From a virus, in IMG/VR virus record IMGVR_UViG_3300042465_001922, positions 1 to 60,059 of that record: 60,059 bases of DNA. The stretch is one strand, 5' to 3'. Positions 1,846-48,127 of the stretch are shown here, in pieces; the stretch's first letter is position 1, and the number at the start of each line of letters is the position of its first letter. The translations under genes and the position numbers were made by a program. Below the pieces are notes generated by a model. The model searched no databases. It was not told the origin of the DNA and was given only the letters and a program-made list of their open reading frames with translations.

Positions 1846-2824
1846 TTTGTTTCCTCACTTCTTCTGCAACCTTTTTGGCATAGAGTTCCAAAGGAACGCC
1901 AAGCCGCTTGGCGATGTTAACCTGCGTTTGTGTTAACACGATCTTCTTAGAGGCCGTGCTGCGGGTCGCAGGCGCTACCACGCTTTTTGTGGCACGAGCA
2001 GGTTTTTCAACCTTCTCGGTAACATCTTCCGGAGAATCAAAGGCATCCGGAAAAACTTGTCGCATACGAGAGTCAATGCGCTCGTAGTACTCTTCACTTC
2101 TCGGGTCGATGCCCGACTTGACTAGCTTCTGGTGCAATCCAAGCGCAAAACTAGTCATTTCCTCGTCCTGTCCAAACCACCGATTTTCTTGTTGCCAGGC
2201 AAGTGCTTTGGTGTCAGCTTGAGGCGCTTGAACGAATTGTTGAGTTTCTACTCCCTTTTCTTCCTCCTGTAAAGGGGTAGGTTTAAAAGAAGCAATCCGC
2301 TCGGCTTTTAGCTTGGCCGTAGTCAGAGCTTCTTGAGCTTCGGTTAGAGCTTCAGAATCGCCAGCGTCATAGGCTTCCTTGAACTTGCGCTTGGCTTTTT
2401 CCATCTCCAAGTCAACAGCTGCCTTGGCCTGGTTGATCAAAGCCTCTTGCCCTTTATTCAGGGAACCTTTTAGCTTCTTGTTCTCCTCAATAATGGCTTG
2501 AGCTAGCCGAATGGCCTCCTCTTTTTCGCGCATGGCGGCTTCCTTAGCCCGGCGCTCGTCGTGGTAGCCCTTGGTAAATTTCTCAATCCGCTTGCGGACG
2601 TTTTCCGAGTACTGGGCAAGCTCGTCCTCAGACGGCTCTTCCGGTGCTGCTTCCAATGGCTTTCGGCCACGGTCTTGTTCCGGGGTGTCGTCTACAACCT
2701 CGATCTCAGAGTCGTTAGCCTTAGCTTCTTTCTCTAGAGGAAGCTCCTTCTGGGCCTTTTCTTTGGCCTCTCGCTCCTCTTTTTCGTCCGGAAACTCGTA
2801 TTCAACCTTCTCAAATTCAGCCAT
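1838..2824 (-). CDS. Capsid assembly scaffolding protein
   Basis: A 328-residue, highly charged protein dominated by Glu, Lys, Ala and Gln, with long predicted coiled-coil helices (about residues 70-190) and a basic C-terminal end after VVAPATRSTASKKIVLTQ. This composition, and the place between portal and major capsid genes, is typical of phage scaffolds, which guide procapsid assembly and bind capsid subunits through a basic C-terminal helix. No protease domain is seen. Start ATG at 2824 follows a clear AAGGAG. Confidence 0.75.
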   Translation of the reverse strand: MAEFEKVEYEFPDEKEEREAKEKAQKELPLEKEAKANDSEIEVVDDTPEQDRGRKPLEAAPEEPSEDELAQYSENVRKRIEKFTKGYHDERRAKEAAMREKEEAIRLAQAIIEENKKLKGSLNKGQEALINQAKAAVDLEMEKAKRKFKEAYDAGDSEALTEAQEALTTAKLKAERIASFKPTPLQEEEKGVETQQFVQAPQADTKALAWQQENRWFGQDEEMTSFALGLHQKLVKSGIDPRSEEYYERIDSRMRQVFPDAFDSPEDVTEKVEKPARATKSVVAPATRSTASKKIVLTQTQVNIAKRLGVPLELYAKKVAEEVRKQNG

Positions 2825-2834
2825 TTTCTACTCC

Positions 2835-3245
2835 TTAAGCACGGGAAATTCCCCGGGGATCTTCAACCACGGCCTCGACAGAATCGTCGTTTATCAGCCT
2901 AAATTCCCGGCCATGAATCTTGACTCGGGTACCAGTGTTAGCCCTGACCAACACGAAATCACCCTTCTTGCACCACGGGCCGTGGGGGAAACGGTCTTTG
3001 TCTTTGTAGCAGTCCGGACCAAGCTCAACTACGAAAAGAACATTGGTAAGCAGTTCTTCATACCGAATGATCTGGTCAGCCTTAAGAATGCCGCTTTCGT
3101 ACTTTTCCTCGATCTCGGGGATACAAACAAGGATCTTGTATCCCATAGGCTTAGGCAGCTGCCTTGCCTTTTCCTCGGGAGTCTCGGGCAGAACCGTTGC
3201 CTCCTCCGGGTTATCAGGGTTTACCCCTATTAAAATTTCACTCAT
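2835..3245 (-). CDS. GroES-like co-chaperonin (Cpn10 fold)
   Basis: A 136-residue protein whose residues about 32-130 follow GroES order. PMGYKILVCIPEIEE matches the first barrel strands, YESGILKADQ around residues 49-58 sits where GroES has its mobile loop with the GIVL contact to GroEL, VLFVVELGP matches the GEVLAVG strand, and KKGDFVLVRANTGTRVKI with INDDSVEAVVE matches the GDIVIFNDGYG and ILAIVE ends. An acidic N-terminal extension of 30 residues is extra. Lying between scaffold and portal, it would work with host GroEL in folding the capsid protein, as T4 gp31 does. Divergence from GroES is large, so homology needs a profile search. Confidence 0.8.
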   Translation of the reverse strand: MSEILIGVNPDNPEEATVLPETPEEKARQLPKPMGYKILVCIPEIEEKYESGILKADQIIRYEELLTNVLFVVELGPDCYKDKDRFPHGPWCKKGDFVLVRANTGTRVKIHGREFRLINDDSVEAVVEDPRGISRA

Positions 3246-3432
3246 CAGAGTTCTCCAAATTGCGCACGAGGTCTTCTACTAGTTGTTTTGCGGCGAGCAG
3301 CCCTCGGATCTTGCCGCAACTTTCTCGGTACTCGGCGTAGTCTTTCGGCTGGCCGCTACCTAGAAATTCTTGTGTCTGTGCAATTTGGTCGTCTAATTGA
3401 GAGGAAATTACTTCTAGCACTCTCGTTTCCAT
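3238..3432 (-). CDS. Small helical protein between portal and GroES-like genes
   Basis: A 64-residue, all-helical looking protein (METRVLEVISSQLDDQIAQ start) with YAEYRESCGKIRGLLAAK in the middle, a motif recalled from similarly placed small phage genes. It overlaps the GroES-like gene by 8 bases and follows portal by 3 bases, so it is part of one coupled run. Function unknown; the size and position would suit a small assembly factor, but nothing in the sequence proves that. Confidence 0.55.
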   Translation of the reverse strand: METRVLEVISSQLDDQIAQTQEFLGSGQPKDYAEYRESCGKIRGLLAAKQLVEDLVRNLENSDE

Positions 3433-3435
3433 TCA

Positions 3436-5814
3436 TTATCCTTTTGGTTTGAGTGTCTCTTTCAATATTGCGGTTTGGGCTTTCTTGTCTTCGCCGCGCT
3501 CTTTTGCTGCCAGTCTCATAGCCTCGCGTTTGTTCTCGGACATGATCCGCTCGCGCTCGATCTCCTGCTGCTGGGCCTTGAGAGTAAGTTCGGCCTGGTC
3601 CTTCTGGGCTTGCATCTGAAGTTTCTGAGCCTGAAGCTGGAGTTCCTGTTGCTGCATTTGGATAACAGGATCTTGCGCCTGGGCCTGAGCCTGCTGTTGA
3701 GCTGCTTCTGCCTGGTTCTTCTGGAGAAGCTGAGCCGAGGCTTGAGCCACGAGCTGAGACAGGTTGACTTCCACATCCTCTGGCAGGTTTTTGTCCGGCG
3801 GAGGCAGCGGAACACCCAACGTATTTTCAATATCGCGGCGATATTTGAAGCCAAGGTGTTCTGCGATGTGGGCCATGAGCGAAGCCTGAATCTGTTGAGC
3901 CATCGGGTTCTGGCCAATCGCTCCCATGATCTTGGGATCTTGCATCATCGTCTGGTGAACCGCGATGTGTGCGTCGTGATCTTGGTAAATAAATGCCTTG
4001 AGAGGTTTGCCCTTCAGAGCATTCATGTTTTCCGAGACCGGATCTACAGGCTTTTGATCGTCGATGGTCGGTACGAGCTTGGCTGCATCCTTAATGCCAA
4101 GGACGTCAAGCATCTGGCGGTGTAAAGCAGGAAGATCATAAATCTGAGGCGCGGATTGAGCCAGTTGAATAACCGCCTGATACTGGACAACTCGCTGCGC
4201 CATAGTGGCGGCGTTTGGATCAGAGACTGGGATGACTTCAACAAGGTCGTAATCACTTTTCTTTGCGCGGGGTGGTGCGTTCTGCGGTTCGTAAGCATAC
4301 GAGTCCTCCGTATAGTCACGGATGATGTTCTTCAGGAGTTTGAACTCCTGTTTCATCGCGTGATGGACCCTCGCCTGCACGGCACTCATGGTCTTCAGCT
4401 GTCTTTCAAGTAAAGCCAGAGTTGTGCCGACCGGAGCTTGTGCGCTCATATCGGACACTTTCATGTCTGCGACTGAGGCAAGCCGACGCGCTTCGTCGTT
4501 TACTTGATTGAGCAGCTGAAGAAGGGTCTGACTCGGCTCTTTATAAGGCAGAGTCATTATGTTGTCTTTAATCGCTCCACCGGGAATGTCCACATCTCTA
4601 AATTCACCTGGAGCAATCGGCGTGTCGTCTCCCTTTACTCGGAGACCTCGGGCTTTAAGCCCTCCTGGAAGGTTAGCCAGGGATCCTGCGTCAATAAGTT
4701 GACGTATAAGCGTCGTGCCTCCGCGAGCATACCCACCGATAATATGAATGAGGCCAAGGTTGTAAAAGCCAAAGCCGGGAATATAGCCATAGTGAACGAA
4801 ATGGGTCCGTTTAAGCTTAAGGGGGTCATCGGGATTCCAGTTTCTACGAATGGCGAGGACTGTTGAGGTCCCTTTATCAATCGTAACGATGTACGGGAGT
4901 GCGATTCCATCTTTATCCTCGTATCCTGGCAGGTCAAGGTCAGCTTGAATCTCAAGCAATGTATATCTGTCATCCGAAGTTAGCGTGAAGCCTGCCTCTT
5001 CCGCCTTCTTCCTTTCAATATCCGTCTGAATAAAAACCGGATCTCCAAGATCTACGTCGCGATAAAAGCCGGCGACCATCAGTCGCTTTAGTTCATTCTT
5101 TGTTTTACGCATTACATGTGTAATGCGCGGTGCTGTCTCTAAGTTAGAGGCGCCATAAGGAACAATCACATCTTCTGCGGTTACAAATAAAGAAACCTGG
5201 CGTCCAAGACTCGGATCGTAGTAAACCTTTTTAAATGCTGACCCCTGAAGGCCGAGAGAGTAGAGCAGACGCTCATGCTCGGGGCGGTATTCAACCATTA
5301 CTTCAGTCAGCTGGTAATTCATATCCTGCTGAACTCGCTCGGAGGCCTCTTCCTTAAACTTGTTAGGCTGACCTATGATCTTCGTTTTGACCGGTCCCTT
5401 GGCCGGGAAGGTCTCCATGATCGTCTCGGACTGGAACCTAATGGCTGCCTCAGAAAGCAGGGTGGAAAAAATCCCGCAGGCTCCGTTCCAGGGTTCGGTT
5501 CGTTCTTCGTATTTGATTCCAAGGACTTCGAGTCCTTTGACCAACATGTCCGCCCAGTCTTTTCGGGAGTTTTCGTCATTCTCTACATCTGATGTAAGCT
5601 CAGAGCCGAACTGGGTTAGCTCGGACTCATTCATAAATTCAGCTAGGTTGGCATCAAAGTCCGTCTCACCAAGCTCGCGAGGTTCAATATCAATCTCTAC
5701 CCCGTCCATCTTGATGGACATTGACTCCGGGTCTACAACCTCGATCTCAATTTCCTCGGCTGACTCTTCGTCGATCCCAATTGGGGCTTGGTATAGGGCT
5801 TTTTCAATCGCCAT
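3436..5814 (-). CDS. Portal protein (P22-like)
   Basis: A 792-residue protein that would form the dodecameric portal through which DNA is packed and ejected. After an acidic N-terminus it has the P22-like portal signature NSRKDWADMLVKGLEVLGIKYEERTEPWNGA region (about residues 82-112), then LSEAAIRFQSETIMETFPAKGP, YLEYRP-type VEYRPEHERLLYSLGLQG and FKKVYYDP. The last 130 residues are Gln/Ala-rich coiled coil (the barrel). Length is close to P22 gp1 (725). It lies directly downstream of the large terminase, the usual order. Confidence 0.9.
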   Translation of the reverse strand: MAIEKALYQAPIGIDEESAEEIEIEVVDPESMSIKMDGVEIDIEPRELGETDFDANLAEFMNESELTQFGSELTSDVENDENSRKDWADMLVKGLEVLGIKYEERTEPWNGACGIFSTLLSEAAIRFQSETIMETFPAKGPVKTKIIGQPNKFKEEASERVQQDMNYQLTEVMVEYRPEHERLLYSLGLQGSAFKKVYYDPSLGRQVSLFVTAEDVIVPYGASNLETAPRITHVMRKTKNELKRLMVAGFYRDVDLGDPVFIQTDIERKKAEEAGFTLTSDDRYTLLEIQADLDLPGYEDKDGIALPYIVTIDKGTSTVLAIRRNWNPDDPLKLKRTHFVHYGYIPGFGFYNLGLIHIIGGYARGGTTLIRQLIDAGSLANLPGGLKARGLRVKGDDTPIAPGEFRDVDIPGGAIKDNIMTLPYKEPSQTLLQLLNQVNDEARRLASVADMKVSDMSAQAPVGTTLALLERQLKTMSAVQARVHHAMKQEFKLLKNIIRDYTEDSYAYEPQNAPPRAKKSDYDLVEVIPVSDPNAATMAQRVVQYQAVIQLAQSAPQIYDLPALHRQMLDVLGIKDAAKLVPTIDDQKPVDPVSENMNALKGKPLKAFIYQDHDAHIAVHQTMMQDPKIMGAIGQNPMAQQIQASLMAHIAEHLGFKYRRDIENTLGVPLPPPDKNLPEDVEVNLSQLVAQASAQLLQKNQAEAAQQQAQAQAQDPVIQMQQQELQLQAQKLQMQAQKDQAELTLKAQQQEIERERIMSENKREAMRLAAKERGEDKKAQTAILKETLKPKG

Positions 5815-16465: not shown

Positions 16466-16530
16466 GACTAGGCTCCGATGATTCAGCAGGAACCGCCCAC
16501 CTACGGGTCAGATCCAGGCCCACAAAAGAA

Positions 16531-16633
16531 AACCCTTTAGTGGAGACTTGGGCTTGACAGGCCAGCATCGGGCGGACACCAACGATGACTACAAGCCCCC
16601 ACTAAAGGGTTCTGAACAACGTGTGTGTCCGCC
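16531..16633. ncRNA. Possible pseudoknotted structured RNA or DNA element
   Basis: AACCCTTTAGTGG (16531-16543) plus GGGCTTG (16550-16556) pair with the unbroken CAAGCCC-CCACTAAAGGGTT block at 16592-16611: 20 pairs with one six-base bulge. Inside its loop GGCGGACAC (16571-16579) pairs perfectly with GTGTCCGCC downstream at 16625-16633, outside the stem. Interleaved perfect arms of this length make a pseudoknot fold likely. It lies in the 341-base gap between a minus gene and the rightward HslV-like gene. Role (leader RNA, regulator, replication structure) and strand are not known. Confidence 0.5.
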
Positions 16634-16740
16634 AAACGCCGGGATGTCAACTCCGACAAACGAGAGACTATCACAGTCCAGGAAAGTTCCGCAAGATATT
16701 TTTTACCTGGCCTAACTATGTACGCCTGGCGTTATTAGTG

Positions 16741-16806: not shown

Positions 16807-17301
16807 ATGACTACCATTGCAGCCAAATTTTCTACCATGGAGATAGCCGCCGATAGTATGGTTAGCGGGGAGGATTCCTTCTACATGGTGTCAAAATTGC
16901 GGCATGGCAAAAATTCTATCTACGGCGCATGTGGTGACTGGGACAAAGTACTGAAGGCGTTCCAGCTGATTGAGACAGGCGGCAAAGAATGGGAGTCAGA
17001 CTTAGACGTAACCATCCTTGAGCTGAGGACAGACGGGATATGGATCTACGAATCCACGATCATTCCTGTCAGGCTGAAGAATGATTACTGGGCAGTGGGG
17101 ACGGGGGCAAACTTTGCAATAACCGCGATGAGGCTGGGTAACAGTCCAGCTACAGCGGTATCAATAGCGGCGGAGTTTGATCCTTTTACGCGCCATCCAA
17201 TCGAATCATACAAACTAGAGGTCAATGATGGTAAGAAGAGTACCCGAAGAGGAATTCATCCGGGTGTGGCAAAGGTTAGAAAGCCCAACGCTAGTAGCTA
17301 A
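16807..17301 (+). CDS. HslV/proteasome beta-like Ntn-hydrolase
   Basis: A 164-residue protein with the proteasome-beta/HslV layout. It begins M-TTIAAKF, so Thr2 would become the N-terminal nucleophile after Met removal, as in mature HslV (TTIVSV). Asp16 in EIAADSMVS and Lys30 in MVSKLRHG sit where the catalytic Asp17 and Lys33 fall. IYGACGDWDKVLKA matches the GFAGGTAD strand, and WAVGTGANFAITAMRLGNSP with ATAVSIAAEFDPFTR matches HslV's IGSGG..AA.AL...A..IA. No HslU-like ATPase is nearby. An in-frame ATG at 16621 would add a hydrophobic, non-homologous extension and is rejected. The end overlaps the next gene by 77 bases. Confidence 0.72.
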   Translation: MTTIAAKFSTMEIAADSMVSGEDSFYMVSKLRHGKNSIYGACGDWDKVLKAFQLIETGGKEWESDLDVTILELRTDGIWIYESTIIPVRLKNDYWAVGTGANFAITAMRLGNSPATAVSIAAEFDPFTRHPIESYKLEVNDGKKSTRRGIHPGVAKVRKPNASS

Positions 17302-18166
17302 AACTTTTGGAATGTCTGTCAGGGGAGCGCAGAAAAGACGAAAAGAATTAGAAGAAAAAGGAGTTGTGCTTAACACGCTAGACCCCAGAGCTAAGCTAGA
17401 TAAGTTTCCAAGAACCTTTGTACCAGAAGACCGTAGAGTAATTAAGCACGAAGTAAAGAACGGTCATATCTTTATAGCTTCAGACGCTCACTACTGGCCC
17501 AACGAGGAAACGGTAGCTCATAAGGCTTTTGTCAAGCTTATCAGTGAGATGAAGCCGCTAACCGTGTGCCTCAATGGTGACGTTTTCGATGGGGCCAGGA
17601 TCTCCAGGCACGAACCACTGATGGGGACAAACCCACCCACCGCTAAGCAAGAGATCGAGGCATGCGTTGACCGGCTGCATGAAATCAAAAACGCATCCAA
17701 GAACGCACGGACATTCTGGACGTTCGGTAACCATGATGTGCGGCTCCATAGGTATATCGCCATGAATGCCCCGGAGCTGACCGATGCTATGAATCTTTTT
17801 GATTACTTCCCAGGCTGGCTTACCTGCTGGCGACTTGATGTGAATGATGTGATCATCAAGCATCGCTGGCATAACGGCATCCACGCCAACTACAACAACA
17901 CTCTGAAGTCCGGCCGAAGCATTGTGACCGGGCATCTACACAAGCTCATGGCCACCCCTTGGGCGGACTATAACGGCCGGCGCTGGGGCATAGACTCCGG
18001 CACCTTGTCAGAACCGGAGAGCGAGAAATTTTCGTACACCGAAATGAATCCGGTACCGTGGGCAAGCGGCTTTGTGGTCCTCACGATACTAGATGGCAAG
18101 CTGATCACGCCAGAGTTTTGTGAGGTGCTTGACGGGGTTGCGTACTTCCGAGGCAAGCCGGTATGA
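17225..18166 (+). CDS. Calcineurin-like metallophosphoesterase with N-terminal HTH
   Basis: A 313-residue protein. All metal-binding blocks are present: SDAHYWP (standing for DxH), LNGDVFDG (GDxxD), FGNHDVR (GNHD), a late H (IKHRWHNGIHANYN) and GHLHKLM (GHxH). The first 50 residues form a helix-turn-helix (TLVAKTFGMSVRGAQKRRKE), so it may act on DNA or be tethered to it. Such phage enzymes are often proposed to be nucleases or phosphatases. Its start lies 77 bases inside the HslV-like gene in another frame. Confidence 0.82.
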   Translation: MMVRRVPEEEFIRVWQRLESPTLVAKTFGMSVRGAQKRRKELEEKGVVLNTLDPRAKLDKFPRTFVPEDRRVIKHEVKNGHIFIASDAHYWPNEETVAHKAFVKLISEMKPLTVCLNGDVFDGARISRHEPLMGTNPPTAKQEIEACVDRLHEIKNASKNARTFWTFGNHDVRLHRYIAMNAPELTDAMNLFDYFPGWLTCWRLDVNDVIIKHRWHNGIHANYNNTLKSGRSIVTGHLHKLMATPWADYNGRRWGIDSGTLSEPESEKFSYTEMNPVPWASGFVVLTILDGKLITPEFCEVLDGVAYFRGKPV

Positions 18167-27041: not shown

Positions 27042-27389
27042 ATGATCCAGCTTGAGCTACCGTACCCGCCGACCATCAACCACTATTGGGGGCAGTACGG
27101 CAACCGCCGTTTCATAGGGAAGAAAGGCAAGCAGTTCAGGATAGATGTGGCAGAGGCATGCCTTGAGGCTGGAATACAGACCCTAGAAGGCCGTCTTTCG
27201 GTACACGTAGCCCTCTGGCCCCCGGATAGGCGGGCAAGGGACGTAGACAATGTTTTAAAGCCTTTGCTTGACGCTTGTGAGCATGCCGGCTGCTTTGTGA
27301 ACGACAGCCAGATCGACGAGCTTCACATCATTCGGCAGGAGGTCCGTAAGGGCGGGGCCTGCACGATAGTAATCCTACCTATTTCCTGA
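27042..27389 (+). CDS. rusA: RusA-type Holliday junction resolvase
   Basis: A 115-residue RusA-family nuclease. LPYPPTINHYWGQYGNRRFI is the usual opening, and DRRARDVDNVLKPLLDACEH carries the paired Asp residues (D-x-DN) that bind Mg2+; GCFVNDSQIDELHIIRQEVR completes the core. It resolves four-way junctions made during recombination or replication before packaging. The ATG lies directly behind the type B palindrome. Its 3' end overlaps the convergent giant protein gene by 15 bases. Confidence 0.9.
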   Translation: MIQLELPYPPTINHYWGQYGNRRFIGKKGKQFRIDVAEACLEAGIQTLEGRLSVHVALWPPDRRARDVDNVLKPLLDACEHAGCFVNDSQIDELHIIRQEVRKGGACTIVILPIS

Positions 27390-30300
27390 TTCCTTGGCCT
27401 GACCAACCCGCTCATTGAACCGGGTCATGATGTCCGTGATCCGCTTATCAATGGCCTTGATGTCCTCTTTGGGGGCGTCCTTCTTGATCATCTCAGACTT
27501 CCGCCTGCGCAAAGCTTGAACCGTGCGCTCAACATTGTTGGCTGCGCCATACAGTCTGGCCTCGGGGTTTTCCCTAATATATTCATCCACGGGTTCCCGG
27601 TTCTTACGACGGCCCTTGATCTCGTTCTCATGCTCATTGATGAGTTTGATGTTGTCGTAGAACTTAGCGCTTTGAGCGGCCTGTCCTTTAGTCTCGCCAA
27701 CAAATCGGCCAACCAGAGGGATCTTATAGGTGGGCAGCTCTTCCCCTGTAACAGCAGCTGCTGCTGTTTGCTGGGCTTTTATAGCCTCCCGCCCAATACC
27801 ACCAAACGCTTGGCCGATTAGGTAATCAATCTGATCCGGAGTAGGACTGAACTTACCGGGCCGGAATTCGGTTCCACCGCTAGCATAGTTAAAGAATTCG
27901 GAAAGCTTCTTGCTAACCCAGCTTGCTGTGTCCTTAGCCCTGGTGTATCCAGGCGTTGGATCAAGACTGGAAATATCTTCCTTGGCGATTGTTTTCCCTG
28001 TCCAATCTTTGTTCTCAAGCAAAGCTACGGCTGGATCAAAAGGCGTTGGAGCAAAAGTTTGCCAAGACCAACCGGCGTTACCCAGCGGGTTAAACATCTC
28101 TAAAGCTGCACCGGTTATCTGAGCCACACGCTTTCCTGGATCTCTGAAATCATTCAATGCCCACTCGGTTCCAATCCTGGAAACAGTAGGAATGATGTTG
28201 AATCCAAGCGGCATGGGAATGGTGATGTATTTTCCATCTCCAATTGGGATAACAATGTTTCTATCCTTGATGAAATCGGGCGGCTCATCCTCATCAAACC
28301 CAGCAGCGGCCAGCAACATGGCTTGAGCTGATCCAAGAATCAAACCACCGTAGACAATCTTTTTACCAGCCGGACCACGAAGGGTCTGATACATCCTGGC
28401 CGTGCCTTGTACTGAAGCGTTAAAGAACGCATATAAAGCACCAACTTGCCGAGCTACCTGACCCTTGCGGTTAAAGTTAACCGTCAAGTTCTTTGCTACG
28501 GAAGCGGCCTGCTGCTTGCTTAATCCCTGATCCAGCGCTGCCTTGTAAGCGGCCAGGCGGACTGCATTCTCCATCGTCTCGTTGTAATCAGACAGCCAGT
28601 CAAAAATTGCCCGAGCAGACTTTTTGGCTTTACCCTCGGAAAGTTTTTTCAGCTCACTTGCCAGTGCATCACGACGCTCATCAGCTCGACTGAACTGATC
28701 ACGGAATCCCGTTTGGCCACCTTCTTTTTGGAACTCATCCCACAAGCTAGACCACTTCCCAGATGGAGGAGCTTTTCCGTCCCGTCGCGCCCGCAAATCA
28801 GCATAGATTCCGCGCAAGGCCGGCAACGTGTCAGCCATAACTTGCTTGGTTTTTCCTCTGATCGGAGTGTTTGTCAGATTAAGAGCTGCGCCTTGATAGT
28901 CACGTAAGAAGTTGATAGCACCAAAGATTGGGTTGTACTGCGTGTTAACCCTAGCAAAGTATCTGGTAACCACACCAAAAAACTCTAACGCTTTACTGAG
29001 CTGATCAGCATCCAGATTCTTAAGTGCAGTCGCCATGCGAATTGCACGGGGATCTTTTGTGTTAAAGAAAACAAACTTATCTTCGCCATTTACGCGAACG
29101 GATAAAACATTCTCTGCGCCACGTAATGTTGGATTGATTCCATGAATAACCGAATTGGTCGTTGGATCAACGTACGACCGAGTCGGCTCTTTCATAATGT
29201 TGGCCGCATCAGCCGGATTAATTCCCATCGACTGTAACTGTTGAACCGTCTTGAGAGGATCTTTGATGGCCTTGGGGTCTACCGCAAACCAGAAGTCAGT
29301 GTTTGGGTGTTGAACAGCTAAGCCATAAATTGCCTGAGATACACGGTTTTTTTCTGAACGGACAATTGCCCGCTCTCTTTGCATAGCGATATTGGCAAGG
29401 ATGTCTACTACCTGGCGACTAGAGCCAGCAGCCCTCTTGCTGGTAGGGCCACGGACACTGAAGCCCTGGCCAATACCGCGACCGATATTGCTAAGCTCGT
29501 AGTCCATCTCTTCTCGGGCAAGAGGTATGTAGTTCTTGTAAGAATTTTCCCAAGCCTGAATTGTTGCCGGATCTTCAATGCCGTTTTGAATCAATGTCTG
29601 CCGTGTCTTGGCTGTAATGGCGTCAACCTTTTTGGCTATTGACTCTAAGTCCTTGCGCTTTTGAGGAGACAAAGCATCTAAATATTTATTAGCATCGTCA
29701 GTAAAAATCCCTGACCCGCCGTCTGGCATAGCTGGATTTACTTTGGCGACTTGAATGTTCCGTTCTTTAGCATGACGGTTGTGCAGATACTCTTCGACAT
29801 CGGCAATTGTAAATTTTTTAGCATTAATTTCTTTAAGCAGCGGAGTAAGTTCTTTTTGTATAAAGTCATTTGTCTGCTTAGCTGTACGCCCGTGGTATAA
29901 CTCCTCTTGGAGATACGCATTCCAGCGATCCTGAAGCTTGCCTCTTGCCTCTTCAATATTAGCAATGACCCGCTTAGTATCAACCATCTTGTCTTGCAAC
30001 CGATAGATGACGTTATCGGTCTTGGTGTCATCTGGACGACCCCAAGTAGACTGTGATGCAGGTTGACCAAAAATATTTGTTCTAGCAAATAACGCTATCT
30101 GAGCTTCTTCATTGCTTGTTATTGGGGCGCCAGGAGAGGTTGCAACATTTTTAACCTCCATAATTGGCATGGTAAATAGCTCATTTGATAAGCCAAGAAC
30201 CTCTGAAAGGGTAGTTTCTTTAGATTTTGGAAGGCCAAGAAACTGTCTAATTGTTTCTACAAACTTGTCCCATACGCTTGTATTTTTGTATGGGATTGCT

Positions 30301-32864
30301 TCCATGTATTTTTGCATCTCTCGGCTGGTCATACTCCAGGCCAAGACTTCATCAGCATCATCTAAATAGTTTGCGCCTTTGTATATGCGAAGTTCAAAAT
30401 CATTCAGCTCGCCTTTGCCTTCTTTAAAAGCTTTTACCCGCGAGTTGTAGTGTTTGATAATTGTATTGCTTACGTCATTAAGACGTTTAGCAAGATCAGC
30501 AGCTTGAGTTCCAGCAAGTTGTTTTGTTCTTCCAAGAAAAAGCGATCCCTGAGTTACCGAATGAATTAACTCATGAAGTACTGTGTCGTATGTGGTTCCA
30601 ACTAATTTTGGGTCGCTATTGTCATTCAACCAAATTGTCAGGCTTTTTAAATTGCCAGTCTTGGTATCTACTCGTGACACTGAAATGCCATTAGAAGACA
30701 ACAAACGAACTGGTACTCGGTCACCAATTTTTGCAATCTTTAAATCAAAAGTAACACCAGAGTCCATCAATTTTTCCATGCGATCAACAACACGCTTGGC
30801 AATCATTTGATAGTCTTGGGTTGGAGCGTTAGATGCCATCCATTTGGCCGCCTCTAACGGAGTCTTTCCATCTAGCGCTTTTTGAATCTTCTCGGTTTCG
30901 TCTTTTAGGTCACCTTCAACCAATGGTTCTGCTCCAGCAGCAGATTTTTCAACGGTTTCTGTGTCGCTGTTAAAAAGTTTTAATTGATCGGCTCTTTCGG
31001 CCACGCTTGGAGTGCGCTTCGGAGTGATCTGGGATATGCCCTCGGCACCAAATAAATCTCCTGTAACAGCGGCTTCACGCTCAGGAACCTGTTGCTGTAG
31101 TTGAAAAAGATCGCGCTCTCGGTCAGCAATTGCCTTTTCTTCTGGAGAAGGTGCTGCCTGGCGAGTGATTATTTGCTCCGACGGCTCTCCCTCCGGAGTA
31201 ATACGTTCTGTAATACCTCCAGCTGTGACGATTTCGGGAGCTGTCTCAGCAACTCTAGGGCCTTCTTCTGCTGCGATTTCGGCTGCGATGGCATTGGCTT
31301 CTTGTCTGATTTGTTCATCCGTCATTTCCCTCGCAAGTAATTCTTCAATTTGCGCTAAATCCGTATTGAGTTTGCGCAGGCTTATATCGGTCTCAAATGT
31401 CAGATAGTTCTGATTCCGAATCTTGTCTTTGATGTACTCAACCGCTTCGGTTTCACGCCCAGGCGCCTTGAGTTCTGGATCAAGAAAGTCGTCTAGCTGG
31501 TTAGTGTTTGCTAACACATCAGCGATGTTCTCTCCCTCGCCACGCTTAGGCGACATACGGAAGACCCTGGCAACGCCCGGCTCCGGGGAGATGTCAAATA
31601 CTTCTGACTCACTAAGCCTGTTGCGCAACACGGTGGCCAGGCTTGGGCCTTTATCCCGCATGGCACGGCTAATATCTTTTTCTGCTGCCGCCTTCTCAGC
31701 TTTAAGTCCAGCAATTTCTTCCGGCTCTGGGGGCAGCTCTTCAGAAATGTATGGCCGAGTCTCGGTGGGAATTTCTGGTGCGGCTTCAAGTTCGGCTGAG
31801 GCTTCTGCCATCCGGCGTTGAGCTTCAGGCAAGCCTGGTACAGCCTCTGCTGCCGTGGGTTCTGGCATCAAGCCTAGCGCTTTGAGAGCCTCTTCTTCTG
31901 GGGCCATGCCCGGCTCAGTCGCCTCAATAGCCTGCTCTCTAGCAAGACGCTCCGGTGCAGACTCCGCAGCCTGTTGCTTGAGATCTTCTTCTTTCTCTGG
32001 GGACGGAGTTTCTTTACGGCCGCTTAGAACCTCTCTAGTAGCCTGAACGCCACCACCTAATCCGCCACCAACGATGGCGCCTTCCAGCATCCGTTCACCA
32101 AGTTCTTTTGGATCAACTCCTTTGATCGTGCCAGCTGTCTCACCCAGGTATGCGGCACCTTCTTCAACGGCCTCAGTTCCTCCCTGAACGCCTGTTTCTT
32201 TCGCCAACCTGCCGGTGCGGGTTTGTGATTCAGCGCCTTTACCAAAGCGTTTTGTAGCAAATCTTTCTAATGTTGCCTCTGTTATGGCCGCACCAGCTGC
32301 CGCTGTTACATCACCAACAGTAGCGTCATTTAGTGTCTTGTTGTCATTCTTAACCCGTTCATCCAGGATTTCTTTAGTCCTTGCACCTATGTACGGGGCA
32401 AACGCATACACCGCTGCTGCCATGTCTGGGGTGGATGTAATAACACGCTCAGCAATAAACGGTACTGCATTTAATGGATTGTCAGCTAAATCGCTTAGCT
32501 TGGTGCTGGGGCTGTAACCAATATTCTTTTCAACATCCCGCAACGACCCAGCCAGGTTAAACAGGGGTTGAAGCTGTTTTTCGCTTTTAATCTGTTCGGG
32601 TGGAATGTTACTTAAAGGAATCTTAGATTCCATAAAGTCACCAGCCCGTTCGGCCACTTCAGCAACCGCCTCTACACCCGATGCAGCAAGACCAGCTGCC
32701 CTTCCCAATGCTCCCATTAAGGGATTTTTTGTCCCGCCTGGTGGGGCGCCTAGCCCAGGCATTTGTTGTATGACCGCCTGGTAAGCCTGAGTGTCATCTA
32801 ACTCTACTGGAGACTCAACGCGAAAGGTCCCCTGTCCTGGGATGTCAATCCGGTAAACCGGCAT
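27375..32864 (-). CDS. Giant LPD38 polyvalent/ejection protein with HELIH motif
   Basis: An 1829-residue protein, the largest in the window. The N-terminus (MPVYRIDIPGQGTFRVESPV) and first 300 residues are Ala/Gly-rich membrane-active looking sequence (IVGGGLGGGVQA). Residues about 300-640 are Glu/Pro-rich linker. HELIH at residues 764-768 (TVLHELIHSVTQG) is a zinc-metallopeptidase motif. Residues about 1430-1560 match the LPD38 domain (NAVRLAAYKAALDQGLSKQQ, then FNASVQGTARMYQ). Such proteins are carried in the virion and injected with the DNA. The peptidase could process the host wall or host proteins. Confidence 0.75.
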   Translation of the reverse strand: MPVYRIDIPGQGTFRVESPVELDDTQAYQAVIQQMPGLGAPPGGTKNPLMGALGRAAGLAASGVEAVAEVAERAGDFMESKIPLSNIPPEQIKSEKQLQPLFNLAGSLRDVEKNIGYSPSTKLSDLADNPLNAVPFIAERVITSTPDMAAAVYAFAPYIGARTKEILDERVKNDNKTLNDATVGDVTAAAGAAITEATLERFATKRFGKGAESQTRTGRLAKETGVQGGTEAVEEGAAYLGETAGTIKGVDPKELGERMLEGAIVGGGLGGGVQATREVLSGRKETPSPEKEEDLKQQAAESAPERLAREQAIEATEPGMAPEEEALKALGLMPEPTAAEAVPGLPEAQRRMAEASAELEAAPEIPTETRPYISEELPPEPEEIAGLKAEKAAAEKDISRAMRDKGPSLATVLRNRLSESEVFDISPEPGVARVFRMSPKRGEGENIADVLANTNQLDDFLDPELKAPGRETEAVEYIKDKIRNQNYLTFETDISLRKLNTDLAQIEELLAREMTDEQIRQEANAIAAEIAAEEGPRVAETAPEIVTAGGITERITPEGEPSEQIITRQAAPSPEEKAIADRERDLFQLQQQVPEREAAVTGDLFGAEGISQITPKRTPSVAERADQLKLFNSDTETVEKSAAGAEPLVEGDLKDETEKIQKALDGKTPLEAAKWMASNAPTQDYQMIAKRVVDRMEKLMDSGVTFDLKIAKIGDRVPVRLLSSNGISVSRVDTKTGNLKSLTIWLNDNSDPKLVGTTYDTVLHELIHSVTQGSLFLGRTKQLAGTQAADLAKRLNDVSNTIIKHYNSRVKAFKEGKGELNDFELRIYKGANYLDDADEVLAWSMTSREMQKYMEAIPYKNTSVWDKFVETIRQFLGLPKSKETTLSEVLGLSNELFTMPIMEVKNVATSPGAPITSNEEAQIALFARTNIFGQPASQSTWGRPDDTKTDNVIYRLQDKMVDTKRVIANIEEARGKLQDRWNAYLQEELYHGRTAKQTNDFIQKELTPLLKEINAKKFTIADVEEYLHNRHAKERNIQVAKVNPAMPDGGSGIFTDDANKYLDALSPQKRKDLESIAKKVDAITAKTRQTLIQNGIEDPATIQAWENSYKNYIPLAREEMDYELSNIGRGIGQGFSVRGPTSKRAAGSSRQVVDILANIAMQRERAIVRSEKNRVSQAIYGLAVQHPNTDFWFAVDPKAIKDPLKTVQQLQSMGINPADAANIMKEPTRSYVDPTTNSVIHGINPTLRGAENVLSVRVNGEDKFVFFNTKDPRAIRMATALKNLDADQLSKALEFFGVVTRYFARVNTQYNPIFGAINFLRDYQGAALNLTNTPIRGKTKQVMADTLPALRGIYADLRARRDGKAPPSGKWSSLWDEFQKEGGQTGFRDQFSRADERRDALASELKKLSEGKAKKSARAIFDWLSDYNETMENAVRLAAYKAALDQGLSKQQAASVAKNLTVNFNRKGQVARQVGALYAFFNASVQGTARMYQTLRGPAGKKIVYGGLILGSAQAMLLAAAGFDEDEPPDFIKDRNIVIPIGDGKYITIPMPLGFNIIPTVSRIGTEWALNDFRDPGKRVAQITGAALEMFNPLGNAGWSWQTFAPTPFDPAVALLENKDWTGKTIAKEDISSLDPTPGYTRAKDTASWVSKKLSEFFNYASGGTEFRPGKFSPTPDQIDYLIGQAFGGIGREAIKAQQTAAAAVTGEELPTYKIPLVGRFVGETKGQAAQSAKFYDNIKLINEHENEIKGRRKNREPVDEYIRENPEARLYGAANNVERTVQALRRRKSEMIKKDAPKEDIKAIDKRITDIMTRFNERVGQAKESGNR

Positions 32865-42633: not shown

Positions 42634-43482
42634 ATGTATGTTTATATTTGGAAAACACCAGACGCAATTCCGTTTTACGTTGGATTTTCTAAAAGCCGTC
42701 ACCGCACCAATCCCAATAATGGCGGCGGAAGAAATTGGCTTACCAAACAAAAACTTAGTGAAATTGGGTGTCATAACGTAATTGTTGAAATTCGTCCAGT
42801 TGAGTCAATTGTGGCCGGGAGAGCGCTAGAGCGCAATCTCATAGCAGAACTTGGTCGAATACAGACGGGAACTGGCACTTTAACCAATCTTCGTGAAGGC
42901 GGAGAAGGCACCTCATCGCCGTCCCCAGAGCATCGTGAAAAGTTGCGCCAACTTCTTTTTGACCCATCACATCCTGCGCACAGTCCAGAATCCCGTGCCA
43001 AACTTAAAAAACGTATGCAAGATCCTGATGTCAAAGCAAAATTTACGGGGGATGCAAATCCATCAAAGCGCCCAGAAGTGCGAGCCAAGCTCAAAGCCAA
43101 GTGGGCAAATCCTGATTTTAGAGCCGCAATGAAACTTGCAAGGACTGGGGTTAAACGAACTTTGTCTGAAGAAAATAAACAAAAATTACGAGACAGGTTA
43201 GCGGCCAATCCAAACATGTCAGGATGGTCAAGTCGCAATGGAAAAGACCTAGACTTTGAGGCTAAAAGAATAGATGGGATTCGTAAGGCCCAAGCAAAAA
43301 GAGTTGAAAAAATGTCTGATCCAGTTGCCTTGGCCCAGCGCAAAGAACGCCTTAAACAAACAATGAACTCTGAAGAATTTAAATCCAAACGATCCCAGTG
43401 GGATACCCCAGAATACCGAGCCAAGTTATCAGCGGCAAAGAAAGCATACTGGGAAAAAAGACGATCCATGATCAGCTCATAA
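42634..43482 (+). CDS. GIY-YIG homing endonuclease with NUMOD3-like repeats
   Basis: A 282-residue nuclease on the plus strand inside the leftward late region. YVYIWKTPDAIPFYVGFSKS is the GIY-YIG pair, and RALERNLIAELGRI has the metal-binding Glu. The remaining 190 residues hold repeated helix-turn modules (SPEHREKLRQLL, SPESRAKLKKRM, RPEVRAKLKAKW, SEENKQKLRDRL), NUMOD3-type DNA-binding units. A self-mobilising gene. AAGGAG precedes the ATG. Its 3' end overlaps the lysozyme gene by 11 bases. Confidence 0.85.
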   Translation: MYVYIWKTPDAIPFYVGFSKSRHRTNPNNGGGRNWLTKQKLSEIGCHNVIVEIRPVESIVAGRALERNLIAELGRIQTGTGTLTNLREGGEGTSSPSPEHREKLRQLLFDPSHPAHSPESRAKLKKRMQDPDVKAKFTGDANPSKRPEVRAKLKAKWANPDFRAAMKLARTGVKRTLSEENKQKLRDRLAANPNMSGWSSRNGKDLDFEAKRIDGIRKAQAKRVEKMSDPVALAQRKERLKQTMNSEEFKSKRSQWDTPEYRAKLSAAKKAYWEKRRSMISS

Positions 43483-43978
43483 ATAAAGCAATTTCGGCCC
43501 TGCGGCGGCGCGTCAATCCCTTTTCAAAAGCACTGCCCGGATTTACGTACATCATAAACCCCTCGGCAATTCTTTCCAACGGCTCATCCCTGACTATTCG
43601 CTGGCGAAGGGTAGACCTCTGAAACCCACCTACACCGATGTTGTAGCTAAGAGCGACACAAGCGTCAAACAAGCCTTGACGCCCAGATAAATTAGGGGCA
43701 AGTCGAAGAACACCGCGCTCAAAACTGACGAGGAGATTCTTGAAACGTTCCTCCAGTTCTGGCTTTGACCATAGACGATTGTGTTCTGGTGCAAGGGGGA
43801 ACTCCTTTCTGATCATTCCGGTATAGCCTTCTTTGCGAATCACTGGCAGGCGAATCTGTTCCTGATGCAGCACCTCACCCCAGCCCACAGTCCATATTGA
43901 TGCAGGACACAAATAGGGCCGGTCACGATACCCCTCAAACTGGTGCATTACGTGGATGCCTGCCTCGGATGTTTTCAT
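43472..43978 (-). CDS. Endolysin, T4-type lysozyme (GH24), Asp replaced by Cys
   Basis: A 168-residue muramidase that cuts peptidoglycan for lysis. Glu15 (HQFEGYRDRPYLCPASIWTV) is the catalytic acid, with Thr30 at the expected spacing; the middle residue, Asp20 in T4 lysozyme, is Cys24 here, a variant known in some phage GH24 enzymes. ALSYNIGVGGFQRSTLRQRI and a basic end RRRRAEIALFMS complete the fold. No signal peptide. It overlaps the holin-like gene by four bases. Confidence 0.85.
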   Translation of the reverse strand: MKTSEAGIHVMHQFEGYRDRPYLCPASIWTVGWGEVLHQEQIRLPVIRKEGYTGMIRKEFPLAPEHNRLWSKPELEERFKNLLVSFERGVLRLAPNLSGRQGLFDACVALSYNIGVGGFQRSTLRQRIVRDEPLERIAEGFMMYVNPGSAFEKGLTRRRRAEIALFMS

Positions 43979-44457
43979 TTCTTAAAGGACTGGCTTCCAA
44001 ACCAAAACGCAATCACGCTTGAAAAGATGATGGCCGAGTCCTCATCCCAGAGGATTGCCATAGCCTGATCAAACGGCACCCCGGTCTTCCAGGCGTAGAA
44101 GAAGCCAAAGATGTTCACAAATAAGAGCATGGAGAACATGCCGTAGGTAATGACCGGACGGACAGAAGCTCGCATATTGACCACCCACTGGGACGCACCC
44201 TTACCGATCTCGATGTCGTGGGCATACAAAGCCTGGCGCTCCTGAACGGCGGTCTGCATGGCGACCTGGTCAGTCCGTATCTCCTCAACCCGGGCCTGGG
44301 CGGCAAAGCCTTTCTCCAGCATCTGAAGCTCCCGCTCCGTCTGCATCTTGGCAAGCTCTAGCTCATGGGCCTTATCCGACCGATCCTGGAAGAAGTCCAA
44401 GACCTTGGGCAGACCGCCCATCAGGAATGAAACGAGGGTAGAAAGCAGGGTAATCAT
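43975..44457 (-). CDS. Putative holin (GTA-type, coiled coil plus membrane helices)
   Basis: A 160-residue protein. A weak N-terminal membrane segment (LLSTLVSFLMGGLPKVLDFF), a charged coiled coil (residues 28-95), then two strong helices (VITYGMFSMLLFVNIFGFFY and SAIIFSSVIAFWFGSQSF). This matches the 3TM holin family used by gene-transfer agents and many phages. It lies between the lysozyme and two spanin-like genes. Confidence 0.7.
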   Translation of the reverse strand: MITLLSTLVSFLMGGLPKVLDFFQDRSDKAHELELAKMQTERELQMLEKGFAAQARVEEIRTDQVAMQTAVQERQALYAHDIEIGKGASQWVVNMRASVRPVITYGMFSMLLFVNIFGFFYAWKTGVPFDQAMAILWDEDSAIIFSSVIAFWFGSQSFKK

Positions 44458-44714
44458 CGCTTAGACCTTTCTTCAAGGAGTTTTAAACGGACCTGAAGGT
44501 CGTGAATATCTTTGTAAATCTCTTCTTTGAGCTTGTGCCGGGCTTCGGCTGAAATTGGGGAATCAGTTGGGGTGCCGCTGGGGGTAATCAGGGCTGGCAT
44601 CTTAGACTTGATGTCTACCAGATCGTGTTGGATGTTAGTTACGGCGCTGATCATCCAAGTAATTGCAGCCACAATCACCGGAAACGCCATCTGAATTACT
44701 TTTGTCCAGTCCAT
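44454..44714 (-). CDS. Small membrane protein of the lysis cassette
   Basis: An 86-residue protein with an N-terminal membrane helix (VIQMAFPVIVAAITWMISAV) and a C-terminal coiled coil (ARHKLKEEIYKDIHDLQVRL). The ATG at 44714 overlaps the TGA of the gene before. The N-in, coiled-coil layout would suit an inner-membrane spanin or a holin partner, but no outer-membrane lipoprotein partner is seen. Confidence 0.5.
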   Translation of the reverse strand: MDWTKVIQMAFPVIVAAITWMISAVTNIQHDLVDIKSKMPALITPSGTPTDSPISAEARHKLKEEIYKDIHDLQVRLKLLEERSKR

Positions 44715-45169
44715 CACCACACCTTTGTCATCTTAAGAACCGCATAAATAATCAAAGACAAAACCCCCAGCACCAGCCATTCGTTCCGTGTTGCCTGTCG
44801 GTCAGAGTCGTACTCCTTTTGCAACTCCTTGCGCTCCTTCCGAAGCTTGACTTCTAATGCCTGAACCTCATCTATTGCCCGTTTGCCAAACTCTTTCTCA
44901 ATCTGTTTAAAGGCGTCCTCTTTGTTGCGCCGCAGGTTGTACAGCACCCGATATTCGTTGATGGCGTCCACATACATCATGTCGCCCCGGCGTTGAACTT
45001 CCTGTTGTTTCCTGCGCCACGCCACACGGGCGCGAGCTTCTTCGTCCAGAAAAGCATTGACTTCTTTGGCTGTCTCTTTGATGTCCCGTCCGGCTTTGAT
45101 CGCCTCGCGGATTCCACCTAAAGCGGTTTGAACGACCTTGGATGGGTCGGCTGGATCTGGCAATGACAT
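44714..45169 (-). CDS. Coiled-coil protein with C-terminal membrane anchor
   Basis: A 151-residue, very charged coiled coil (Arg/Lys/Glu-rich, about residues 30-125) followed by a tail anchor LVLGVLSLIIYAVLKMTKVW. Proteins of this layout are common next to holin genes of podovirus-like phages; possibly part of the lysis or internal membrane machinery. Function not known. Confidence 0.5.
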   Translation of the reverse strand: MSLPDPADPSKVVQTALGGIREAIKAGRDIKETAKEVNAFLDEEARARVAWRRKQQEVQRRGDMMYVDAINEYRVLYNLRRNKEDAFKQIEKEFGKRAIDEVQALEVKLRKERKELQKEYDSDRQATRNEWLVLGVLSLIIYAVLKMTKVW

Positions 45170-46120: not shown

Positions 46121-46808
46121 TTGATACCTCGTTGTCTGCTTGTTGTTTCAGTTTCTCTTGACGTTTTATCTCTCGTTCACCGCTTCCTCCGGTGCCACCC
46201 GCCATATAAATTATGTTTTGATCTTCATCTAATGCTAATTTGTTGTGCAGAAGTCCATCTTCTTTGCCAACCATTAAATTTGGTGCGCCCTCTAAAAAAT
46301 CTTTCTGAGTAGTTATTTCACTTAAATCATCTTCATTTGCATAATTTTTTGTATTGGCAAGTATTTCCATAATACGTTTTGCTTCTTCATCGTCATACCC
46401 AGATGCACCAAGTTGTTGAAACACTGCCATATCATTTGGAAACGGAGGATGCCCATTAAGATGATTTTTTTCAGCTTCTGATACACGCCAGTCTCGCCAA
46501 CTAGAAAAATCTTTACGGGGTGTTATTTGAGCATTGCAACCAACATTAGCAGCTAATTGATGTATTAACTCAATAACTTCTACTGGCTGCATAAGACACC
46601 ACAAATGTCGCCCACCATCCCCACGCATCATAAGTTCTGTGGTTCCACCAAACGCTGTACCAACCATCATAGATCTAGCTCGGTTGTAATTACTTTCCCG
46701 GTTTTCTAAATCCATTTTGGCTTCAAATTCACGCAACTGCTCAGCATGCTTTACTGCTATTGCATTTTCAGTAGCTTGAATTTTTTTAACAGCTTCACGT
46801 TTTTTCAT
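46083..46808 (-). CDS. Tail-region protein, unknown
   Basis: A 241-residue protein starting at the ATG at 46808, which overlaps the stop of the tail tip gene (ATGA). N-terminal coiled coil (KIQATENAIAVKHAEQLREF), then a folded region with GRHLWCLMQPVEVIELIHQL and a C-terminal Gly/Lys/Gln-rich end (IYMAGGTGGSGEREIKRQEK). Overlaps the next gene by 38 bases. Perhaps a fibre-associated or assembly factor. Confidence 0.5.
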   Translation of the reverse strand: MKKREAVKKIQATENAIAVKHAEQLREFEAKMDLENRESNYNRARSMMVGTAFGGTTELMMRGDGGRHLWCLMQPVEVIELIHQLAANVGCNAQITPRKDFSSWRDWRVSEAEKNHLNGHPPFPNDMAVFQQLGASGYDDEEAKRIMEILANTKNYANEDDLSEITTQKDFLEGAPNLMVGKEDGLLHNKLALDEDQNIIYMAGGTGGSGEREIKRQEKLKQQADNEVSNETVATKKSANR

Positions 46809-48127
46809 TGCGGGTTCCATGAAATAACAATTTGACCACCAGGCGATGCAACTGTAATTGGGTATGAACCACCAGGAGTTACTGGTAGGCAATTAACTGT
46901 CGATGGTGTAGCAGCAGATCCTGAAGGTGTTGGCGATGTTCCACCAGCTCCACCAGCTCCTCCTCTTCCACCTCCTCCTCCCCCGCCAGACACGGTCCAT
47001 GAATTAAACGGGGCAGGAGTGCAAGGGAAAGAATATCCACTACCACCAGCTCCACCGGATCTATAAATTTGAGGAAAAGTTGGATTTCCTGGAGCTGGAT
47101 TTCCTCCATATGGGTTAAACGAAAACGGTCCTGGCCTACGACAATTGTACGGAGGGGCAAATGGAAATATACAATAAGACACAACATTTATAGATCTACC
47201 GGCTTGTGTGTTAAGTGCAGGCCACGGACCGTTTACATTGCTACCTATGCTTGATCCTCCAGTAGTGTTTACTGGAAACGCTGGTGTATATGCAGGAAGC
47301 AATGGCGCGCTACTGCAAGACCATGTACCACCTGCGGCACCTAAATAATTATTACACGGTGCAGCTGGAGGAAAATTCGATGCTGATGGTCCACTTGTTC
47401 CATCATTTGTAACTCCTGCGCCTCCACCGCCTGTACCACCTTTTACCCTCCAACAAGTCATATTAGGGTACGAAGTGCGTTGAAAATTGGCGCCGGATCC
47501 ACCATTTCCTCCGCCACTTCCACCCGATCCACCACTACTCGCTCCAGCACTAGATCCCGCACCGCCACCACCGCTATTTCCAGCATTTCCAGCCGCTCCA
47601 GCAACTCCAGCGTTTCCTCCAGCACCCCCATTAAATGTTTGAGATAAACCACTTGATGCGTTTCCAGTATTACCTGGATTGCCAGCATTTCCAGCATTGC
47701 CAGCATTTCCCGAAGCTCCTGAGCTTCCAGGATTTCCGGCGGTTTGGCATGGTCCATTCCCCTGATTACCACCAACAGTAAAATATGGTGCAGAAGGAGG
47801 AGGACTCCCTCCAAATACAGTTATATAACCTCCACACGGATCTGTGCCTTTCCAAGCACCACCACCACGATTTCCACATCTAAATTGATTAGTATTTCCG
47901 TCTTGCCGTGCTGCTCCTGAACCGCCTCCACCTCCACCAGTTCCAGGATTTCCTGGATTTCCAGAATTCCCAGCGTTACCAGGATTACCGGTTCCGCCTT
48001 TGCCGGTAATGCTTACTTTCTTAACTCCAGGGGGAACAGTAAATGTACCACTCGCATTAAAGGTTTGCGTACCGCCAGGAACTAACCCAGCCCCAAGAAC
48101 ACCAATTTTTGCTGATCCAATAGGCAT
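46805..48127 (-). CDS. Collagen-like glycine-rich tail tip/adhesin
   Basis: A 440-residue protein, over a third Gly. It begins with the usual fibre entry (GTQTFNASGTFTVPPGVKKV), followed by blocks of Gly-Asn-Pro/Ala/Ser repeats (GNPGNAGNSGNPGNPGTGG; GNAGNAGNAGNPGNTGN) and poly-Gly runs, mixed with aromatic loops holding ten Cys. This fits a polyglycine-II sandwich, as in the receptor-binding tip of phage S16 (gp38), with variable loops contacting the receptor. It lies directly downstream of four 2OG/Fe(II) oxygenase genes. Confidence 0.75.
   Translation of the reverse strand: MPIGSAKIGVLGAGLVPGGTQTFNASGTFTVPPGVKKVSITGKGGTGNPGNAGNSGNPGNPGTGGGGGGSGAARQDGNTNQFRCGNRGGGAWKGTDPCGGYITVFGGSPPPSAPYFTVGGNQGNGPCQTAGNPGSSGASGNAGNAGNAGNPGNTGNASSGLSQTFNGGAGGNAGVAGAAGNAGNSGGGGAGSSAGASSGGSGGSGGGNGGSGANFQRTSYPNMTCWRVKGGTGGGGAGVTNDGTSGPSASNFPPAAPCNNYLGAAGGTWSCSSAPLLPAYTPAFPVNTTGGSSIGSNVNGPWPALNTQAGRSINVVSYCIFPFAPPYNCRRPGPFSFNPYGGNPAPGNPTFPQIYRSGGAGGSGYSFPCTPAPFNSWTVSGGGGGGGRGGAGGAGGTSPTPSGSAATPSTVNCLPVTPGGSYPITVASPGGQIVISWNPQ

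Follow-up and report, generated by a model that had tools for sequence, protein, structure and literature searches.

The gene at 16807-17301 of a freshwater phage raises the question of what a peptidase related to the proteasome would do in a virus, and whether it would need an ATPase to do it. The window analysed here is the whole of a single virus record of 60,059 bases, and the original prediction for this gene was a phage-encoded HslV/proteasome beta-like peptidase with a complete catalytic set, which could hijack host HslU or act alone. Our best overall reading, to which we give a probability of roughly two in three, is that of an ATPase-free threonine peptidase in a late, lysis-linked module with a metallophosphoesterase.

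Table 1 Features of the window discussed in the text
Feature	Position	Strand	Description	Basis
Structured, probably pseudoknotted RNA element	16530-16664	+	In the gap before PPH, at the strand switch	
PPH-type proteasome-like threonine peptidase	16807..17301	+	164 aa; Thr2, Asp16, Lys30	PHROG, alignments, profile, model
Ribosome-binding-like stretch	17215..17227	+	5' of the phosphoesterase ATG	Read by eye
HTH + calcineurin-like metallophosphoesterase	17225..18166	+	313 aa; begins in the PPH 3' end in another frame, 77-nt overlap	
GH24 lysozyme (endolysin)	43472..43978	-	26 kb from PPH	Pfam Phage_lysozyme, E=6e-21
Holin-like membrane protein of the window lysis cassette	43975..44457	-	phrog_6637, no assigned function	
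151-aa protein	44714..45169	-	Hydrophobic C-terminal end	No PHROG match

Identity and conservation of the peptidase

The reading frame of the gene runs from an ATG over 164 codons to a stop and stays open in the 5' direction as far as a GTG at 16621. Conservation begins at the ATG at 16807, and a [M/V]-T-T-[I/V] start is present in all 80 related proteins compared (two further loci, cut at the N-terminus, were excluded). Among 51 distinct near-full-length clade sequences, which include the proteins of the window and of Phage DSL-LC04 and exclude two truncated ones, T2, T3, D16, K30, G43, G98, T99, G100 and D125 are invariant. Across 15 members of far greater diversity, from phages of Salmonella, E. 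coli, Klebsiella, Pseudomonas, Aeromonas, Vibrio, Erwinia, Rhizobium and Caulobacter, the invariant set is M1, T2, D16, K30, G98, G100, A104 and A107, with G43 kept in at least 90% of them. The N-terminal M-TTI, Asp16 and Lys30 singled out by the original prediction are all present, its GTG..A..A block is found as G98-T99-G100...A104...A107, and its contention that the catalytic set is complete holds for Thr2, Asp16, Lys30 and the conserved Gly43 position; this pattern of conservation marks the gene as a kept enzyme rather than a relic. The "catalytic spacing of HslV" proved approximate rather than exact, as the steps from Thr to Asp and from Asp to Lys measure 14 and 14 residues compared with 16 and 16 in HslV, two residues shorter in each case. 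Near the C-terminal end many relatives carry D-x-x-[S/T]-G-G, as in the beta-subunit site, and the window protein reads D-P-F-T-R. The core of the protein (residues 1-140) is followed by a basic, low-confidence tail (residues 143-164).

PHROG_1040 ("peptidase HslV family") matches residues 1-140 of the window protein with E=1.3e-21 and is assigned to all ten distant members scanned. As a single sequence, the window protein matches no Pfam or NCBIfam model at E<=1, and a PDB search with it returned nothing meaningful. A profile of 38 relatives retrieves 193 PDB sequences at E<=10, headed by a 20S proteasome beta5i chain (E=7.9e-12) and including HslV (E=2.6e-6) and BPH (beta-proteobacteria proteasome homolog; E=2.8e-6). 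Alignment of the family with E. coli HslV by hhalign (E=6.1e-7, probability 92) places M1-T2 at the HslV start and pairs D16 and K30 with D17 and K33 of the mature protein. The AlphaFold2 model computed from 38 sequences (pLDDT 83.4, pTM 0.77; residues 143-161 below 50) contains a single helix at 45-57, strands, and then helices at 101-109 and 114-124. The second helix (hereinafter H2) of the H1/H2 pair is absent from the model, and the hhalign deletion falls at the same place. Foldseek ranks HslV first for this model (E=2e-9), and VIA-align superimposes it on E. coli HslV with Z=19.2 and an rmsd of 2.3 over 139 residues, placing residue 2 on HslV residue 1. Profile, hhalign and model agree on the predicted proteasome-beta/HslV-type Ntn fold.

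Proteins of this kind have been described as PPH, a phage subfamily of proteasome homologs (Fuchs, Alva and Lupas 2021, PMC8665760). Judged from its sequence, the window gene is a further member of that type, as every PPH trait examined is present: a proteasome-like fold with Thr directly after the start Met in alignments and model, D16, K30 and G43 as equivalents of Asp17, Lys33 and Gly47, loss of H2 from the first helix pair, and a phage-borne core of about 140 residues. The assignment is made through these traits and PHROG_1040 membership, which stand in for the published PPH sequence cluster. The relation in profile and fold to proteasome beta, HslV and BPH places the protein in the 20S proteasome superfamily as a putative Ntn threonine peptidase. 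The full H1-H2 pair of HslV is found neither in the model nor by hhalign, the curated HslV and Proteasome models of Pfam and NCBIfam are not matched by the single sequence at E<=1, and the early strands of the model carry no helical insertion such as the two-helix S3/S4 insertion above the active site of connectase. The original prediction was right about the fold and the catalytic residues and missed that the protein's subfamily had already been described, as well as the partner gene and the lysis context of the relatives. We found no experiments on phage PPH or HslV-like proteins in the open-licence literature beyond PMC8665760 and PMC7823757; the latter, a genome paper, remarks on HslV without HslU.

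Relatives, the overlapping gene and the lysis cassette

The PPH gene itself is ordinary as far as databases go, since hundreds of phage records hold relatives. A tblastn search of 50,697 phage records gave 279 matches at E<=0.01, of which 268 cover at least 80% of the query and all lie below 60% identity; the closest is Phage DSL-LC04 (54%), and 248 of the matching records are Salmonella phages, with about 30% identity among the matches listed. Two IMG/VR searches, one with PPH (the best 80 of 81 stretches encoding a relative) and one with a family profile (the best 80 of 185), together yield at least 108 distinct loci in the window's clade, whose best segments are 57-95% identical to the window protein. 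These loci fall into about 18 rough clusters at 90% PPH identity (104 of the 108 were clustered) and belong to related viruses, so that their shared gene order partly reflects common history. Scanning a bacterial genome collection with the clade alignment produced 114 pattern matches, among which tblastn found no relative, and these matches thus tie no bacterial host or prophage to the clade. Aeromonas phage 4L372XY carries a tandem pair of PHROG_1040 peptidase genes (2147-3540 of its locus), one with a long C-terminal extension, and a hetero-oligomer is possible there.

The gene that overlaps the 3' end of PPH encodes a calcineurin-like metallophosphoesterase (Pfam Metallophos, E=6.6e-6; PHROG_221, E=3.7e-27). 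Ten of its residues, D87, H89, D119, D122, N169, H170, D171, H213, H237 and H239, are invariant in 19 sequences and make up what we take to be the metal motifs DxH, GDxxD, GNHD, H and GHxH. Its model (pLDDT 81) begins with three helices, which together with the sequence suggest an N-terminal HTH, although no HTH model matched. The fold matches LpxH, Rv0805, archaeal PolD, Mre11/SbcD and phage phosphoesterases, and a PDB sequence profile search with the protein found nothing. The ribosome-binding-like stretch before its ATG suggests that translation of PPH and the phosphoesterase may be coupled. The surroundings of the two genes show no conspicuous sigma-70-type promoter or terminator.

By tblastn, the phosphoesterase gene follows PPH directly on the same strand in 100 of the 108 clade loci, and the pair is present in 16 of the 18 clusters. 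Seven of the eight exceptions are contigs that end 4-133 bp past the PPH match; the eighth (L092) continues for 1,984 bp after PPH without a phosphoesterase. With start codons in the relatives set by rule, the phosphoesterase starts inside PPH and out of frame, overlapping it by 20-50 nt in nearly all relatives compared with 77 nt in the window. Because only PPH peptides were used to retrieve the loci, selection does not account for the linkage. Among the neighbours at 11-24.5 kb of the window, most recur only in a sister virus (L003) and the others in 11 loci at most, with the exception of the widely recurring phosphoesterase gene and its antisense shadows. The partner is confined to the window's clade, being found beside PPH in none of 118 other loci, DSL-LC04 and Guernseyvirinae included. 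A reverse search with the phosphoesterase serves as a consistency check rather than independent proof because its contigs overlap the PPH set: of 30 newly labelled loci, 20 have PPH upstream, five begin inside the gene, and five, the most distant (36-46% identity), lack PPH despite room for it.

HTH-phosphoesterase genes without PPH upstream, at 36-46% identity, were seen at L252-L254, L256 and L257, in Microcystis phage Mvi-Yong1342-1 and at L260. In the Microcystis phage the gene lies one small ORF ahead of a lysin gene, and at L260 it is preceded by holin and M15 peptidase genes. More distant relatives of the phosphoesterase are actinobacteriophage proteins, mostly from mycobacteriophages, with about 27% identity, which in the mycobacteriophage proteins extends over about 70% of the length.

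Downstream of the pair, the relatives encode on the same strand a membrane protein, a holin or holin-like protein, and an endolysin. The endolysin lies 1.5-2.6 kb downstream of PPH in 64 of the 65 clade loci that have at least 3 kb of sequence there. The best matches of these endolysins are GH24 lysozyme in 48 cases and peptidase M15 in 16, two unrelated types, so the pair has held its place while the endolysin differs. Even the locus that lacks the phosphoesterase (L092) has PPH ahead of a 153-aa protein, a holin-like protein and a lysozyme. The window retains the pair, with its own lysis genes at 43.5-44.5 kb on the opposite strand, and PPH is likewise apart from lysis genes in DSL-LC04 and, as far as its locus extends, in L003. 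A relative of the window's holin-like protein in L024 has a weak holin match, and homologues of the 151-aa protein occur near the pair in 51 of the 108 relatives.

Outside the clade, PPH directly precedes a holin-holin-endolysin block in both annotated Guernseyvirinae genomes examined, AG11 and Bas73 (the latter placed in this group on our own reading). Bas73 is a BASEL phage of E. coli, and its PPH gene is Bas73_0068. A T4-lysozyme-like gene lies about 1.3 kb upstream of PPH in EF1-1, and a holin-endolysin-spanin block about 1-2 kb upstream in HHBS14_1. No lysis genes were found near PPH in the loci of the Rhizobium, Caulobacter Colossus (CcrColossus), Pseudomonas CHA_P1, Erwinia Machina and Vibrio K43b phages. 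In 10 mostly prophage-type and 11 Vibrio-type loci, scanned over 72 of 90 and 84 of 116 listed ORFs, respectively (short or doubtful ORFs excluded), the neighbours belong to terminase, holin, Q-like antiterminator, HNH and head families, with terminase, holin and Q-type genes near PPH in the prophage-type relatives. Given these mixed neighbours, we rejected lysis linkage as a general rule for PPH; they fit a "late region", and the "lysis cassette" setting is shown only for the window's clade, Guernseyvirinae and, more loosely, HHBS14_1 and EF1-1. A small upstream gene as a common partner was also rejected, as three of ten upstream proteins have no PHROG match and the rest belong to unrelated families, agreeing only within the two Guernseyvirinae and within two Stephanstirmvirinae-type phages.

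The RNA element upstream of PPH is a separate finding and is not tied to the peptidase. Its stem counts 13 + 7 pairs and carries a 6-nt bulge; inside lies a hairpin whose loop pairs with downstream sequence to form a pseudoknot stem. It was found in 29 IMG/VR contigs with one pattern and 43 with another, one copy per virus, and by exact pattern was absent from the bacterial genome collection. The alignment analysed comprises 29 distinct copies (exact duplicates counted once); two truncated at contig ends were dropped, and four from the first set, which either escape the second pattern or run differently, were excluded. In these, 98.1% of 986 cells pair, and changes on both sides occur in 100 cells, as against 29 for shuffled alignments and no more than 11 for slid ones; compensatory changes are strong in the outer stem and the pseudoknot stem. 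Further pair types show no excess (17 compared with 20.4 in shuffles), and the invariance of the element is partly a product of the search patterns. No Rfam family reaches its gathering score, and matches below it are at chance level. Within the examined stretches of the first 29 contigs, PPH accompanies the element only in the sister virus; PPH is also present on two further contigs with the element, L307 and L308, whose PPH loci are L050 and L108.

Elsewhere in the window, all on the minus strand, four adjacent genes and a glycine-rich collagen-like protein of 440 aa lie at 48130-50535 and 46805-48127. Three of the four match 2OG-Fe(II) oxygenase families in Pfam and PHROGs, and the fourth has matches in PHROGs only, to families named ferrochelatase; together they might hydroxylate a virion protein. 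A protein of 1,829 aa (27375-32864), perhaps injected with the DNA, contains an LPD38 "large polyvalent protein" domain, and a 355-aa protein of repeated GVxGTGAVG-type units (51735-52802) has no match in Pfam or PHROGs.

Possible roles of the peptidase

By family chemistry, host methionine aminopeptidase would remove Met1 and leave Thr2 as the nucleophile, which Lys30 and Asp16 would assist, and Gly43 would lie at the oxyanion site; having no propeptide, the protein should be competent once folded or assembled. Its working form would probably be a ring or a smaller oligomer, and its targets unfolded proteins or particular flexible ones. Both H2 and a phage ATPase partner are absent, which makes it most likely that PPH works without HslU: a scan that was positive in 14 of 14 control genomes detected no Clp/HslU-type AAA_2 ATPase, either in the window record or among 11 records of related viruses, which may be partial. 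Proteobacteria commonly possess HslU, the closest solved folds are HslV chains (Z 18-19) and phage annotators name such genes HslV, all of which would suit a working HslV surrogate that docks host HslU, so that a hybrid HslUV-like protease redirects ATP-driven degradation to host or phage proteins. We nevertheless consider such a surrogate very unlikely, and with it the originally proposed hijack of host HslU goes unsupported, as H2 is missing, the single sequence does not match the HslV or Proteasome models, the family profile ranks proteasome beta5 over HslV, and the published survey reports no co-occurrence with AAA+ proteins (PMC8665760).

The fold need not imply general proteolysis. PPH could be a site-specific processing enzyme, a connectase-like transpeptidase or an amidase: the protein ligase connectase is among the relatives without helices of the first pair (PMC8665760), and a small subunit on its own, with no unfoldase, would be suited to a single specific target. 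The connectase-type S3/S4 insertion is absent, however, that region being short in the model, and the Thr/Asp/Lys and D...S/T of a beta-type site are retained, so we judge this unlikely. A virion maturation or scaffold-processing protease would agree with the late position and with the location of some distant relatives near terminase and head genes, but the conserved neighbours in the clade are lysis genes rather than scaffold or capsid genes and PPH lies about 17 kb from the major capsid gene in DSL-LC04, leaving this the most improbable of the alternatives.

The preferred reading of an ATPase-free peptidase in a lysis-linked module draws on gene order. The peptidase and the putatively DNA-binding metallophosphoesterase would be produced together from their overlapping genes in this virus group, and since the pair heads the lysis cassette in most relatives, late action in host takeover or lysis timing is most likely; both joint action and late expression are read from this arrangement. 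We tentatively go one step further and propose, as a possibility that we ourselves doubt, that PPH and the phosphoesterase form a single late module of two enzymes attached to the lysis cassette. The peptidase would clear away a protein, from host or phage, that would otherwise delay or block lysis or late replication, and the target cut by the phosphoesterase would be host DNA or a nucleotide signal. If true, this would give a proteasome-family protein from a virus a functional setting for the first time.

We weigh a further reading about as seriously as the lysis role, and hold it to be quite possible if short of an even chance: the two genes would be passengers (morons) inserted in a late slot next to the lysis genes, serving counter-defence or takeover independently of lysis. 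In its favour, the genes upstream differ greatly between loci while the pair persists, PPH occupies many other positions in other phages, and a distantly related mycobacteriophage phosphoesterase is a counter-defence, DNA-damaging protein according to PMC12287305. On the other side, the pair holds its position although the endolysin switches between unrelated types, and PPH alone keeps its holin-adjacent position in Guernseyvirinae. The passenger and lysis-linked readings share the identity of the enzymes and differ in purpose only.

What appears to be new here is the genomic context of PPH. The earlier survey reported no genomic context, co-occurrence or AAA+ partner that hinted at the function of the homologs it described (PMC8665760). 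A fixed partner in one clade together with repeated holin/endolysin adjacency, seen also in phages of Salmonella and E. coli, provides a first testable hint of PPH function and brings the question within direct reach of a knock-out experiment.

Comparison with known systems

For the partner gene, the closest described systems are the metallophosphoesterases of Cluster A mycobacteriophages (such as Bxb1 gp47 and A10ZJ24 gp48), which are likewise calcineurin-like. In PMC12287305, one such protein damages host DNA and counters host defence and another is an excision factor; these proteins are thus described as an excision factor or an early counter-defence protein, and the match spans the phosphoesterase domain only, excluding the N-terminal HTH of the window's partner. 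We take these roles as a lead for the partner gene, with no transfer of function.

BPH and 20S beta5 resemble PPH as sequence-profile matches, that to 20S beta5 spanning the whole core including the D..S/T-GG site of many PPH relatives. Both are larger subunits with H2 and known double rings, and the window protein has DPFTR in place of DxxSGG. HslV (ClpQ) is the best structural match and shares the M/V-TTI start, the D17 and K33 positions and the GxG-A-A block, but it owns H2 with about 30-35 extra residues there, an HslU partner and a longer Thr-Asp-Lys spacing. The published PPH proteins agree most closely, with a core of about 140 residues, the proteasome fold, the Thr/Asp/Lys/Gly site, no propeptide, no H2 and an origin in tailed phages. 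Compared with them, the window's clade adds the basic, low-confidence C-terminal tail, a fixed overlapping phosphoesterase partner and a mostly lysis-cassette setting, where PMC8665760 saw no informative context.
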